Below are positions 856-37,998 of a DNA stretch of 37,998 nucleotides, one piece after another. The notes under the pieces are model-generated. The model did not search any database. It saw only the letters and a list, made by a program, of their open reading frames with translations, and was not told the origin of the DNA. The number at the start of each line of letters is the position of its first letter. Position 1 is the first letter of the stretch. Source of the DNA: a virus; IMG/VR virus record IMGVR_UViG_3300034120_000377, positions 1 through 37,998 of that record; one strand, 5' to 3'. The position numbers and the translations under genes were made by a program.

Positions 856-3237
856 TCACCCCACCGTAAAGTAAACCCCATCTCTGCTTGTCTTCTTGGT
901 GACATTGCGATTCATGAACTTGAAGGTGTCGATGATCCACTGCATGATGGTTCTGTGCATGGTCTTCTGATGCTCTTGGAATGCTGACCTGATCTGATCA
1001 ACTATATCAGTGAGCTTGTACTCGACTCCGACAATGACGAACTCCTTGATCCACTGCATGACTTCTTCCGGGACTGTGTTGATGAGTTTCTTGTAACGGA
1101 GGGTGTTGTTGGTGCTTGGTAAGAGTCCGACATCAAGGTACTGAGCCACGCAGTACATCATGAAGTTATCGAATAATTGCCACTGCTTAACATCCCATCC
1201 ATCGAAGAGGTTGTGCTTGAAGTACTGTACCGGCTTGTAGTCCTTGTGGAAGAATCGCTTGAGTTCGATCTCATGCTTACGTCTCTCTTGCGAGTCACCG
1301 TGTCCGCTGATGACATAGTTGGAGGTGATCATCACCTTCGGTGCGTCAGCGTAGTCGATGTAGTATGAGTCTTTGTTTTTCTTCTCGATCTCGATGCCAT
1401 CGGTGATGAGGGAGAATAGTTTCTCGAAGTTAAAGTTTTTCAACACGTCCTCCCATGCGAGGACCTGAGTGGCGAGGGTGACACGTTGGTATAGGAAGGG
1501 CTTCGTCCATGACCATAGCTTACCATCGAACTTCACGGTGCGCTTGATGTGCGAGATGCCTTGTATGAATATGCCCTTGCCGACACCACCTTGCGCTGTG
1601 TCTGAGATGATCTCATCAGTGATGATGACTGCTTTCGGGTTGGACTTGTCCTTGTAGCCGTGCAGGAGGAAGCCGATGGTGTTGCAGATAGAGTCGAAGT
1701 TTCTGATGTTCTCTTCTGTCATCTGATCTCCGGTGCTGATGAGTCGGATGAAGTCCCAATATTCGGAGTAAGGAATCTGATCTTTGGTCAGCAGTTCGAA
1801 GTCTCTGTCGATGATCTGATCAGCCCAGATGTAGGAGTCCATCGTGGTGGTGTAGTCGCACACTTCGATGTTATTGGCTGTTACCTTGAGCATACAATTG
1901 CGATAGTAGAAGTAGGCTGTGTTAAGGTCATCACGGTTGAACTTGATCTGATAGTCTTCCAGCCATGCAAGTTTGTCTGGGCGCAGGAAGTTCTCGTCAA
2001 GTCGGTCTTCCAGTTGGTTCTGGATTATGTGCTTGGGCGTATTGTTGATCGTGACAGGCAGTGAGTCGAAGTGTCTGCGGATGATGTCTTTCATCTCGTC
2101 AATCACGATCTCTCTGACCTTGCACCCATCGATCTGCACCATCATCCAAGTCTTGGAGTTGATCTTGTATCGTCTGATCGCATAACGCTCGTATATCTTA
2201 CGTAGGGCGGTCTTGTCAACGTGGTACATGATGCCTACTTTAGTCTTGCGCTCATACCAGAAGATGTCTGATGCAGGTGCGTTGCTTGCTTCGGTGATGA
2301 TGTCATCTGCTTGCTGCCCGGTGATCTGATAGTTGGTGATCAGCTGGCTCTTGATGTCTTGCAGTGGTAGCTGTTGTCGCTTCCATTGCTGGACTGCGTA
2401 CAGTGGTTCTGCGTCCTTGAAGAACTCTGTCTTGTGTTCGCTCTGGTTGAGGTTGTACGCTGACTTGACGGTGCGCTCGATCTCTTCACTGCTGAAGTCT
2501 GGTTGAGCGTACTGTTGCAGGTAGCGCAGTGCTTCAACGATGGTGATGCCATAGCGATTGAGGGCGCAGGCGAACTTGTGGATGTAGTTGTTGCGTCCTG
2601 CCGTGAACGAGTCAGTGCGGTCGATCCACTTCTGGAGCTTGTCGATGATGCGTGACGAGTTAGTCATCAGCAGTCCTGCTGGTATCTGCGTAAATGATTT
2701 GAACGACTCTGTGTAGTTCATCTTGAGATAGACAGGTGCATCAGTGTTGATGTAGATGTCCGGGTCCTCAGTGTCATAGCACGCTGTCGATATGTTCTTG
2801 ACCTTGATGTCGAAGGTAGGAAGGTTGAAGTGATCCTTAAGAGAGAGGAAGTAGTTGGTATGATCTTCTATGGAAGGAGGGATCCTGACAAGCACCTTAT
2901 ACCCCTTGCCTGATGGCGATAGGAAACAAGCATAGATGTATTCGCCCCCTGCACGTAGGATGTTCTCACGTGTCTCGTTGTCGAAGTCGAGGCAGATGAG
3001 TCCTGAGTGCTGTTGAATAGACGCTGTGTTCTTCCGTGTAAACATCCCGGAGAAGCAGTATGCAGGTAGCGTTCGCTTGAGTTCATCACGCTGCGCCTTG
3101 TCTGTCGAGTTGCGGATGCGTTGTATGAGGTCATGCTGCTTTGGGTTGTTCTTAATGCGTTGCAGTGCGGTCTCTATGGTGATGAAGTGACCAGACGATG
3201 TCTCTCTCACCGAAGGGAAGATGGTGATCTTGCTCAT
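856..3237 (-). CDS. Primase-polymerase / helicase, BT4734-like N-terminus with SF3-like ATPase
   Basis: 793 residues. Residues 1-170 look like a BT4734-like (VirE N-terminal type) archaeo-eukaryotic primase fold: LICLDFDNE around 80-88 supplies a DxD metal motif, SPSGKGYKVLV (107-117) fits the second motif, and STACYDTEDPDIY follows near 150. Residues around 215-265 resemble a primase C-terminal helical domain. An ATPase/helicase part follows, with Walker A-like GGVGKG at about 550-555 and hydrophobic-acidic strands after it, of the DUF5906/phage replicative type. It should prime and unwind at the phage origin, which lies directly downstream. ATG at 3237 follows a CAACAAC leader. The C-terminal 345 residues are repeated in copy B with four substitutions. 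Confidence 0.88.
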   Translation of the reverse strand: MSKITIFPSVRETSSGHFITIETALQRIKNNPKQHDLIQRIRNSTDKAQRDELKRTLPAYCFSGMFTRKNTASIQQHSGLICLDFDNETRENILRAGGEYIYACFLSPSGKGYKVLVRIPPSIEDHTNYFLSLKDHFNLPTFDIKVKNISTACYDTEDPDIYINTDAPVYLKMNYTESFKSFTQIPAGLLMTNSSRIIDKLQKWIDRTDSFTAGRNNYIHKFACALNRYGITIVEALRYLQQYAQPDFSSEEIERTVKSAYNLNQSEHKTEFFKDAEPLYAVQQWKRQQLPLQDIKSQLITNYQITGQQADDIITEASNAPASDIFWYERKTKVGIMYHVDKTALRKIYERYAIRRYKINSKTWMMVQIDGCKVREIVIDEMKDIIRRHFDSLPVTINNTPKHIIQNQLEDRLDENFLRPDKLAWLEDYQIKFNRDDLNTAYFYYRNCMLKVTANNIEVCDYTTTMDSYIWADQIIDRDFELLTKDQIPYSEYWDFIRLISTGDQMTEENIRNFDSICNTIGFLLHGYKDKSNPKAVIITDEIISDTAQGGVGKGIFIQGISHIKRTVKFDGKLWSWTKPFLYQRVTLATQVLAWEDVLKNFNFEKLFSLITDGIEIEKKNKDSYYIDYADAPKVMITSNYVISGHGDSQERRKHEIELKRFFHKDYKPVQYFKHNLFDGWDVKQWQLFDNFMMYCVAQYLDVGLLPSTNNTLRYKKLINTVPEEVMQWIKEFVIVGVEYKLTDIVDQIRSAFQEHQKTMHRTIMQWIIDTFKFMNRNVTKKTSRDGVYFTVG

Positions 3238-3411: not shown

Positions 3412-3642
3412 TTAAGAGTTGTTCCAGTCTTGGTGCGTGAGTATCTCATCGAGCAGTCGAGATAGTCTCGCCCACTTGCGCTTGCTCACGATGTAGTATT
3501 CACGCAGGTGTGGAGGTGCGATGTCGATGCCATCGAGAGCCTCGAAGTAGCGAGAGATGCATGAGTTGTATGCGCTTTGTGATGGTCGGACTTTGAGTCC
3601 GATGTCATCCCATTGGATCAGGAGGTTGTTGAGATAGTTCAT
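3412..3642 (-). CDS. Small hypothetical protein, 76 aa
   Basis: Begins MNYLNNLLIQWDDIGLKVR; contains SRYFEALDGIDIAPPHLREYY and a basic helix with KRKWARLSRLLDE. Soluble and predicted mostly helical. Its first 38 bases overlap the 3' end of the cytosine methyltransferase gene, indicating translational coupling in the same operon. No family recognised; an accessory replication or host-takeover role is possible only by position. Confidence 0.75.
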   Translation of the reverse strand: MNYLNNLLIQWDDIGLKVRPSQSAYNSCISRYFEALDGIDIAPPHLREYYIVSKRKWARLSRLLDEILTHQDWNNS

Positions 3643-4846
3643 ATTGTTCTATTGATTTGAATATTTGATACACTACTTGAGGGACTATGGCGTTTCCACC
3701 GCCTTTGATTGACTCTTGTCTCCATTTAGGAAAGGTAATTCCGTCCAGTCGGGAGGAAAACCCATCATCTCCATTACAAATTGGGGATTGAGTTGGGAAG
3801 TTTTGCCAGTTACCAATCTCGCCCGCTTCGTTAGTGAATCTTGATTTTCCAATCCCGTTGATTTCTCTCCGCAATCGGATGCCATCGGTGTCGGTAGGAG
3901 TCCTTGATTCATCAGTCCATTCTTCAGGCAAGTTCCCCCTTGTGCATAGTTTGTGTTCCTGTCGCAACCAGTCGCTGTCGGTGTCGGTAGGAGTCCCTCC
4001 TTCTGCAATAGTGCCATCTTTCCGCTCAACATATTCGCAGTTCCGTCCGACCTCAACTGACCCTTCCAGTCTCCTGATATCGGTGTCGGCAACATTCCGT
4101 GGAATTGAAGATGGTCTAATATTGAGTTCGGTCTTGCTTCCCCGTTCGCTCTGCTGAACATTGATGTTGCTCCTGTTTCTTGTAGTGCTTGTACTCTCTC
4201 CGGGTGTTCCCGTTGAATTGCTGTCGGGGTTGGGAGCATCCCCATTTTCTTTGCATATTCCGATGGACTCATTGTCCTTCCTTTGGCAAATTCCTCCGAT
4301 CTTGGTATCTCGTTTGCTCTTGGTGTTGAAAGCCACAAACCAAACTCGGTCCCTTCGATGGGGAGCGTTGACGGCACAAGCTGGAAGTACATACGATTGG
4401 ACTTCGTACCCTTGAGCTTCCAAGTCAGCTTGCACCTCTTCGAATACCAGCCCTCCTGACCAATTAACAATGCCGAGAACATTCTCGCCCACGATCCATT
4501 TCGGCTGAACTTCCCGAATGACTCTAAGCATTTCCGGGAAGAGATGTCTCTCGTCTTCTTTGCCCAATCGTTTTCCTGCCATAGAGTAGGGTTGGCATGG
4601 GAAGCCACCGGTGATGATGATGTCATCATTTCTCCAGTCTGATCCAAATCTTCTGGAAAGTTCAATGTCGATTGTTTCATAAGTTAATGTGTGAATGTCT
4701 CTGTGATGATAGGCATCTGCCCAGTAATATTCAAGTATTTTGTTTCCGAATTCATTGATCTCGCAACTGAGGTAGTTCTTCCATCCCATCCACTCTGATG
4801 CAAGATCAAATCCACCGATGCCTGAGAATAGTGAGAAGTGAATCAT
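3605..4846 (-). CDS. DNA C5-cytosine methyltransferase
   Basis: 413 residues from ATG 4846, which overlaps the upstream stop as ATGA; the longer reading frame upstream has no family similarity. Motif I FSLFSGIGGFD (4-14), motif IV GGFPCQPYSMAG (80-91) with the catalytic Cys84, motif VI ENV (121-123), motif VIII RRDR (164-167) and the late motif GNAIVP (384-389) are all present. It should methylate cytosine in DNA, most likely protecting phage DNA from host restriction or marking it. No restriction partner is visible. Residues about 175-370, the target-recognition region, are low complexity with repeated TPTDTDS/VADTD strings, because a second ORF is read through this DNA in the +1 frame (3685-4680). 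Confidence 0.92.
   Translation of the reverse strand: MIHFSLFSGIGGFDLASEWMGWKNYLSCEINEFGNKILEYYWADAYHHRDIHTLTYETIDIELSRRFGSDWRNDDIIITGGFPCQPYSMAGKRLGKEDERHLFPEMLRVIREVQPKWIVGENVLGIVNWSGGLVFEEVQADLEAQGYEVQSYVLPACAVNAPHRRDRVWFVAFNTKSKRDTKIGGICQRKDNESIGICKENGDAPNPDSNSTGTPGESTSTTRNRSNINVQQSERGSKTELNIRPSSIPRNVADTDIRRLEGSVEVGRNCEYVERKDGTIAEGGTPTDTDSDWLRQEHKLCTRGNLPEEWTDESRTPTDTDGIRLRREINGIGKSRFTNEAGEIGNWQNFPTQSPICNGDDGFSSRLDGITFPKWRQESIKGGGNAIVPQVVYQIFKSIEQYELSQQPPDPMG
3685..4680 (-). CDS. Overprinted 331-aa ORF inside the cytosine methyltransferase gene (LPTP-repeat protein)
   Basis: An ATG-initiated frame, +1 relative to the methyltransferase, fully nested within it. The product looks protein-like: CKLTWKLKGTKSNRMYF (83-99), four LPTP motifs (149-152, 197-200, 231-234, 262-265), LNPQFVMEMMGFPPDWTEL (297-315) and a C-terminus ending SKAVETP. 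I recall LLPTPTASD...MGFPxxWTELP sequences from phage proteins annotated as DNA methylase-like, so I think this frame is a real, recurrent family, but I could not search for it. The methyltransferase TPTDTDS strings are the shifted reading of LPTPTA codons. The start lacks a strong ribosome site; it may be translated by internal initiation or reached by frameshift. Confidence 0.6.
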   Translation of the reverse strand: MKQSTLNFPEDLDQTGEMMTSSSPVASHANPTLWQENDWAKKTRDISSRKCLESFGKFSRNGSWARMFSALLIGQEGWYSKRCKLTWKLKGTKSNRMYFQLVPSTLPIEGTEFGLWLSTPRANEIPRSEEFAKGRTMSPSEYAKKMGMLPTPTAIQREHPERVQALQETGATSMFSRANGEARPNSILDHLQFHGMLPTPISGDWKGQLRSDGTANMLSGKMALLQKEGLLPTPTATGCDRNTNYAQGGTCLKNGLMNQGLLPTPMASDCGEKSTGLENQDSLTKRARLVTGKTSQLNPQFVMEMMGFPPDWTELPFLNGDKSQSKAVETP

Positions 4847-36932: not shown

Positions 36933-37998
36933 TCACCCCACCGTAAAGTACACTCCATCTCGGCTTGTCTTCTTGGTGACGTTAAGATTCATGAACTTGA
37001 ATGTGTCTATGATCCACTGCATGATTGTCCTGTGCATGGTCTTCTGATGCTCTTGGAATGCTGACCTGATCTGATCAACTATATCAGTGAGCTTGTATTC
37101 GACTCCGACAATGACGAACTCCTTAATCCATTGCATGACTTCTTCCGGGACTGTGTTGATCAGTTTCTTATAGCGAAGCGTGTTGTTGGTGCTTGGTAAG
37201 AGTCCGACATCAAGGTACTGAGCCACGCAGTACATCATAAAGTTATCAAAGAGCTGCCATTGCTTGGCATCCCATCCATCGAAGAGGTTGTGCTTGAAGT
37301 ATTGGACCGGCTTGTAGTCCTTATGAAAGAATCTCTTGAGTTCTATCTCGTGTTTGCGTCTCTCTTGCGAGTCACCGTGACCGCTGATGACATAGTTGGA
37401 GGTGATCATCACCTTGGGTGCTTCAGCATAGTCGATGTAGTAGGAGTCCTTGTTCTTCTTCTCGATCTCAATACCATCGGTGATCAGGGAGAATAGTTTC
37501 TCGAAGTTAAAGTTCTTGAGGACATCCTCCCATGCAAGCACCTGCGTTGCGAGTGTGACACGCTGGTATAGGAAGGGCTTCGTCCACGACCATAGCTTGC
37601 CATCGAACTTCACGGTGCGCTTGATGTGTGAGATGCCCTGAATGAAGATGCCCTTGCCGACACCTCCCTGCGCTGTGTCTGAGATGATCTCGTCTGTGAT
37701 GATGACTGCCTTCGGGTTGGACTTGTCCTTGTAGCCGTGCAGGAGAAAGCCGATGGTGTTGCAGATAGAGTCGAAGTTACGGATGTTCTCTTCGGTCATC
37801 TGATCTCCGGTGCTGATTAGTCGGATGAAGTCCCAGTATTCAGAGTATGGAATCTGATCTTTGGTCAGCAGTTCGAAGTCTCTGTCGATGATCTGATCAG
37901 CCCAGATGTAGGAGTCCATCGTGGTGGTGTAGTCGCACACTTCGATGTTGTCGGCTGTGACTTTCAGCATACAGTTCCGGTAGTAGAAATAGGCTGTG
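36933..37998 (-). CDS. Primase-helicase, C-terminal part only (copy B, cut by the window edge)
   Basis: At least 345 residues plus the bases to the edge, in the same frame and ending VYFTVG as in copy A. The Walker A-like GGVGKG is present. Versus copy A, only four substitutions (N/D, D/E, V/A, R/L) over 345 residues despite roughly 6 percent nucleotide difference in the part I compared, so both copies look functional. The 5' part is outside the window, not lost. Confidence 0.88.
   Translation of the reverse strand, partial: TAYFYYRNCMLKVTADNIEVCDYTTTMDSYIWADQIIDRDFELLTKDQIPYSEYWDFIRLISTGDQMTEENIRNFDSICNTIGFLLHGYKDKSNPKAVIITDEIISDTAQGGVGKGIFIQGISHIKRTVKFDGKLWSWTKPFLYQRVTLATQVLAWEDVLKNFNFEKLFSLITDGIEIEKKNKDSYYIDYAEAPKVMITSNYVISGHGDSQERRKHEIELKRFFHKDYKPVQYFKHNLFDGWDAKQWQLFDNFMMYCVAQYLDVGLLPSTNNTLRYKKLINTVPEEVMQWIKEFVIVGVEYKLTDIVDQIRSAFQEHQKTMHRTIMQWIIDTFKFMNLNVTKKTSRDGVYFTVG

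Follow-up and report, generated by a model that had tools for sequence, protein, structure and literature searches.

The window, by which we mean the whole stretch of 37,998 nucleotides analysed here (positions 1 to 37,998 of IMG/VR record IMGVR_UViG_3300034120_000377), contains terminase, portal and tail genes and hence derives from a tailed phage. Proteins of PHROG 28855, a primase/helicase-related family, were found at both ends of the window (856-3237 and 36933-37970) and perhaps represent a duplicated or wrapped gene. On the minus strand, two open reading frames, termed alpha and beta, occupy the same DNA. As described in the first-pass annotation of this sequence, the second frame lies in the +1 relation and is open for 331 codons; its offset from alpha is 166 nt. 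The features of the locus were as follows.

3605..4846, minus strand: alpha, a C5-cytosine methyltransferase catalytic subunit of 413 aa (PF00145, TIGR00675, phrog_363)
4799..4828, minus strand: alpha motif I, FSGIGGFDLA (SAM binding), in the alpha-only part
4583..4609, minus strand: alpha motif IV, GGFPCQPYS, with the catalytic Cys; doubly coding, PCQ being invariant in alpha alignment A3
4478..4489, minus strand: alpha motif VI, ENV
4331..4366, minus strand: alpha motif VIII, APHRRDRVWFVA
3788..4300, minus strand: alpha "linker", the beta modules read out of frame; an unconstrained but stop-free protein segment (omega_alpha of 1.11; stop counts)
3671..3697, minus strand: alpha motif X, GNAIVPQVV, the first part of which shares bases with the end of beta
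3685..4680, minus strand: beta, 331 aa, +1 frame, wholly inside alpha; putative variable region and motif IX (phrog_1008, +1 overlap, selection)
4366..4542, minus strand: conserved N-terminal domain of beta, residues 47-105, over alpha motifs VI-VIII (alignments A1/A2; zone 1 selection)
4240..4335, minus strand: beta module 1, WLSTPRANE...
4096..4239, minus strand: beta module 2, MLPTPTAIQ..., a type found at other positions in other betas
3994..4095, minus strand: beta module 3, MLPTPISGDWKG...
3901..3993, minus strand: beta module 4, LLPTPTATGCD...
3793..3900, minus strand: beta module 5, LLPTPMASDCGEK..., resembling one of the commonest types, which is mostly last in the array
3736..3792, minus strand: beta motif IX-like segment, LNPQFVMEMMGFPPDWTEL (pattern LNPxxVExxMGFPxxWT)

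The alpha gene starts at an ATG at 4846 that overlaps the stop of the upstream gene. The sole Pfam match of alpha was to PF00145 (1.9e-38), over residues 4-206 only; alpha also matched TIGR00675 dcm (9.6e-37) and, in PHROGs, phrog_363. The solved C5-methyltransferases M.HhaI and M.HaeIII aligned to alpha up to motif VIII and no further, the M.HhaI alignment covering residues 4-175 only. Motifs of the PF00145 class, namely I, IV (PC), VI (ENV), VIII and X, were all present, with motif X approximately 210 residues beyond motif VIII, and no motif IX was detected in alpha's own frame. An earlier claim that the methyltransferase has all its catalytic motifs thus holds for I, IV, VI, VIII and X and fails for IX, an absence that had been missed. 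The low-complexity middle with TPTDTDS and VADTD strings that had been reported in alpha is present over the LPTP modules; what had escaped notice is that these strings are the other-frame reading of the modules and hence a by-product of beta.

An in-frame TAA precedes the beta ATG at 4680, with a single codon between them. No Shine-Dalgarno (SD) sequence was detected before this ATG in the window; the nearest genome matches of beta suggest a bacteroidote host, for which a missing SD sequence is unremarkable. Many Gram-positive loci have an SD sequence before the beta ATG (e.g., AAAGGAGAGTTTTT ATG and AAGGAGGCGTTTT ATG), and of 190 betas, 184 had an ATG ahead of the conserved core and the remaining six an alternative start. 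Beta matched phrog_1008, "DNA methyltransferase" (3.4e-30), and searches of Pfam, NCBIfam and the PDB with beta, and of the PDB with a beta profile, yielded no match. The four LPTP motifs previously noted in this frame were found (LPTPTAI, LPTPISG, LPTPTAT and LPTPMAS), together with one LSTPRAN, as were GFPPDWTEL in beta and GNAIVPQVV in alpha, and the same bases encode SKAVETP in one frame and GNAIVP in the other. Residues M306, G307, P309 and W312 of the motif IX-like segment were invariant among 81 sequences. This segment had no profile or fold match in the Pfam and PDB searches, and we call it motif IX-like on the basis of its sequence pattern, the motif order and the existence of variants in which it is joined to motif X. 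An AlphaFold model of beta built with the 81-sequence alignment was poor overall (pLDDT of 61, pTM of 0.33) and fairly confident only for the N-terminal domain, predicted as two helices and a hairpin (block pLDDT mostly 66-84), and for part of the module region; comparison of this model with PDB folds gave no match. Folding of beta alone without an alignment was useless (pLDDT of 37).

The likelihood of such an overlap arising by chance was examined by permuting the synonymous codons of alpha. The longest +1 open run averaged 114 codons, and a run of 332 codons was reached in only 1 of 20,000 permutations. Second-frame homologues in independent genomes, a search for which had been proposed in the first-pass annotation, were found in phages, plasmids, IMG/VR and GTDB genomes. 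Among them were phages of Bacteroides, Paenibacillus, Lactobacillus and Synechococcus, genomes ranging from Flavobacterium to Oscillospiraceae and metagenome-assembled genomes of candidate phyla; the loci spanned Bacteroidota to Bacillota. Alpha overlapped beta in the +1 relation in all 257 fetched loci, which had been chosen by similarity to beta. In a second set of 80 loci chosen by the alpha catalytic domain alone, the motif IX pattern was located outside alpha's frame in 59 to 61 loci, nearly always in the +1 frame (59 loci), and in frame 0 in none; most of the exceptions inspected had a variant motif IX in the +1 frame (LMGYPIGHT, LQGFPIGWT or MMGLPQDWT). None of 220 relatives with recognisable motifs had a single-chain (monomeric) arrangement.

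A single member of the pair is annotated in many of the records that we inspected. The annotation of phage HB10c2 contains the label "BsuMI subunit YdiP," and a literature search for the gene pair behind this label found no paper. The text of a paper on the CmoX carboxymethyltransferase does not mention overlapping frames or subunits. A literature search in which older papers were thinly covered detected no account of the phage overlap arrangement, its breadth or its modularity.

Selection on each frame was estimated for 31 disjoint pairs of related loci from counts of differences, as opposed to a full codon model. In the alpha-only N-terminal zone, omega_alpha was 0.11 and the beta-frame statistic was 1.06 (0.55-2.6), which is how a single coding frame should behave. 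Values of 0.136 (0.10-0.17) for omega_alpha and 0.56 (0.41-0.75) for omega_beta were obtained in zone 1, the alpha catalytic half, and values of 0.25 and 0.30, respectively, in zone 3, which contains motif IX. In zone 2, the LPTP modules, which were aligned through alpha with some noise from module misalignment, omega_alpha was 1.11 and omega_beta was 0.59 (0.48-0.72). Both frames are therefore constrained in the catalytic half and at motif IX, whereas only beta is constrained in the LPTP region, where alpha is neutral. Third-position differences per codon fell from 0.231 in the alpha-only part to 0.134 in zone 1, and differences in the module region peaked at alpha position 1, which is the third position of beta.

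Stop codons were counted across 26,044 codons of the module region in loci with motif X in alpha's frame, and 0 were detected in the beta frame, 4 in the alpha frame and 1,717 in the third frame. The per-frame constraint and stop counts that had been suggested as checks on the second frame thus both pointed to a constrained beta. In four loci (L229, L231, L260 and L265), beta carries motif X in its own frame together with the variable region and motif IX, and alpha terminates after motif VIII. The alpha frame of these loci had 42 stops in 625 codons. As this frame is nearly stop-free when motif X is in alpha and stop-rich when motif X is in beta, the long middle of alpha appears to be held open only to get to motif X. 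Searches of Pfam and the PDB with the X-in-beta variants found nothing. In a tree of alpha, L229 and L265 were placed in different clades of X-in-alpha loci (L231 and L260 fell outside the tree), which suggests that motif X switched frame more than once.

The stretch of beta that separates the N-terminal domain from motif IX contains one to six modules (five in the window) with a median length of 41 aa and a start of LPTP or similar. A total of 234 module types were distinguished at 60% identity, and the same type was found at different positions. Furthermore, 96 pairs of modules with 75 to 100% identity were detected in betas whose cores were <55% identical. Such shuffling of modules between betas is what exchanged specificity domains show and, together with the position of the modules, led us to infer that each module may read a DNA target.

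Several relatives had unusual structures. In a lineage of Bacteroides conjugative elements and faecal contigs, alpha contained several in-frame TGA codons and no internal TAA or TAG (L096:2214-3489, L097:2103-3387, L003:1715-3998, L004:1-892, L202, L204, L207, L218, L219 and L224). The TGA sites were mostly Trp in relatives (LAAE*MGW, FSR*RQ and DFRG*RG), and the part of alpha before beta had a dN of 0.08-0.10 with a saturated dS. No tRNA gene was detected in the fetched stretches, and the neighbouring genes were annotated as intact; UGA may be read as Trp, or alpha may be made in several pieces or be dying. In faecal contig MT835926 (L003:2060-3050, approximate coordinates), an intein-like insertion (CFDGDTLV...VVHNC) appears to split alpha precisely at the catalytic Pro-Cys of motif IV, and the beta ORF begins within the end of this insertion. 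Divergent phage contigs (L020:2299 and L021:2267, and L072:2026) had a 6-nt TAACTA insertion at the same Pro-Cys, producing a stop in motif IV of alpha (GGFP*LCQPYS) and merely two extra residues in beta. A Bacteroides finegoldii plasmid-labelled record (L339, NZ_OY725938.1, 8360-14995) had alpha and beta near genes of the Hachiman defence system (HamA and a helicase) and near conjugation genes.

The proposal of genuine overprinting made in the first-pass annotation was borne out by the homologues, the 257 of 257 +1 overlaps, selection in two frames, the stop pattern and the SD sequences of Gram-positive loci. We consider it highly probable, from the arrangement and conservation of the two sequences, that this stretch of DNA encodes a heterodimeric C5-methyltransferase in which alpha is the catalytic subunit and beta supplies target recognition and motif IX. 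Alpha, read in frame 0, would contribute the domain for SAM binding and catalysis (motifs I, IV, VI, VIII and X), and beta would be made in the +1 frame from its own internal ATG; taken over both chains, motifs I to X would follow one another along the DNA as they normally do. The N-terminal domain of beta may dock onto alpha, and the LPTP array would be a set of target-recognition cassettes. In ordinary C5-methyltransferases, motif IX packs near motif X, and the motif IX-like segment of beta probably does the same, judging by motif order, sequence and the variants with IX and X on one chain. The middle of alpha would then be filler, the out-of-frame reading of the module array serving solely to get as far as motif X. 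Methylation of the phage genome itself, and hence escape from restriction by the host, is the probable role of the enzyme, and the set of modules would determine the sites covered. Beta had been proposed as either a target-recognition or a regulatory partner, and the former appears to fit best because beta sits at the position of the variable region and motif IX of single-chain enzymes and runs into motif X in the four variants.

That beta is a passive open frame, generated by the composition and codon use of alpha with no product being made, is scarcely credible. The middle of alpha is compositionally biased, the beta of the window has no SD sequence and many annotations contain one frame only, but just 1 of 20,000 synonymous shuffles left a +1 run of such length, amino-acid-level constraint in zone 2 is present in beta and not in alpha, homologues of beta occur across phyla and SD sites precede beta in Gram-positive loci. 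We also judge it quite unlikely that ribosomes shift frame from alpha to beta past motif VIII, returning for motif X, and so produce a single polypeptide that includes the C-terminal half of beta, with no separate beta subunit. Such a product would account for the single-chain order of I-VIII (frame 0), variable region and IX (+1) and X (frame 0), and the X-in-beta variants would require one shift only; however, the N-terminal domain of beta, being upstream of any shift site, would be outside the fused product and yet is conserved and constrained. This domain starts at an ATG just past an in-frame stop, with an SD sequence in many Gram-positive loci, and an alpha frame kept open through the modules would be pointless if ribosomes shifted out and back.

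A beta that regulates or acts against restriction, overlapping alpha by happenstance and unrelated to target recognition, would be in keeping with the lack of a fold match or of a conserved-domain match beyond phrog_1008. We regard this explanation as very improbable, as the C terminus of beta is motif IX-like and the same chain runs into motif X in L229, L231, L260 and L265, while alpha lacks motif IX, is unconstrained between VIII and X and is present in every beta-selected locus. The heterodimer with a target-recognizing beta is hence the reading that we retain. With rather less assurance, we favour the wider proposal that a recombining array of swappable target-recognition cassettes resides inside the gene of another protein in a widespread phage-borne methyltransferase family. 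If this is true, a cassette could be swapped or gained only when stop-free in two frames, beta gaining a specificity and alpha merely reading through to motif X.

The locus represents a same-strand gene overlap of approximately 1 kb with strong comparative support that has been kept from Bacteroidota to Bacillota. Overprinting would hold both parts of a single enzyme together, and an array of modules is forced to stay open in two frames. These results suggest that annotation of a single frame in such phage methyltransferases overlooks the subunit from which sequence specificity most probably comes, and such annotation may confuse the matching of phage methyltransferases to methylomes. The beta modules offer a ready set of parts for tests of target recognition.

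Pieces of this arrangement are already known, since both ORFs are annotated in Paenibacillus phages and the beta family is in PHROGs. The Paenibacillus larvae phage genes Tadhana_54/55, Bloom_56/57 and Lily_62/63 correspond to this alpha/beta pair, with an identical frame relation, and are listed as two methyltransferases (both ORFs of Tadhana and Bloom being annotated as DNA-cytosine methyltransferase) or, in Lily, as an "internal gene." The beta ORF of M.EcoHK31I also lies inside alpha in another frame, an encoding shared by the phage pair. M.EcoHK31I of E. coli (YGGCCR) has a larger subunit with motifs I-VIII and X and a smaller subunit with motif IX, both of which are needed (PMC3404938, citing Lee et al. 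1995), and its predicted target-recognition domain is on the larger subunit (PMC3404938). The phage alpha similarly has I-VIII and X and beta has IX, the last assigned by sequence pattern. The phage pair differs in that the VIII-X region of alpha has an omega of 1.11 and the variable region is on beta as multiple shuffled modules. M.AquI (CYCGRG) is made of two chains, the break falling in the variable region (PMC3404938). The motif order of L229, L231, L260 and L265, with X on the smaller chain, resembles that of M.AquI, whereas the type found in the window has motif X on alpha and a beta that is entirely overprinted. The multispecific enzymes of Bacillus phages are single chains with tandem domains between motifs VIII and IX. 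M.SPRI, M.phi3TI and M.H2I have tandem target-recognition domains and several target sequences (PMC8936443). The one to six tandem modules of beta likewise occupy the variable region between VIII and IX; unlike these enzymes, the phage methyltransferase is not one polypeptide, its array being on a separate overprinted beta and its catalytic motifs on alpha.
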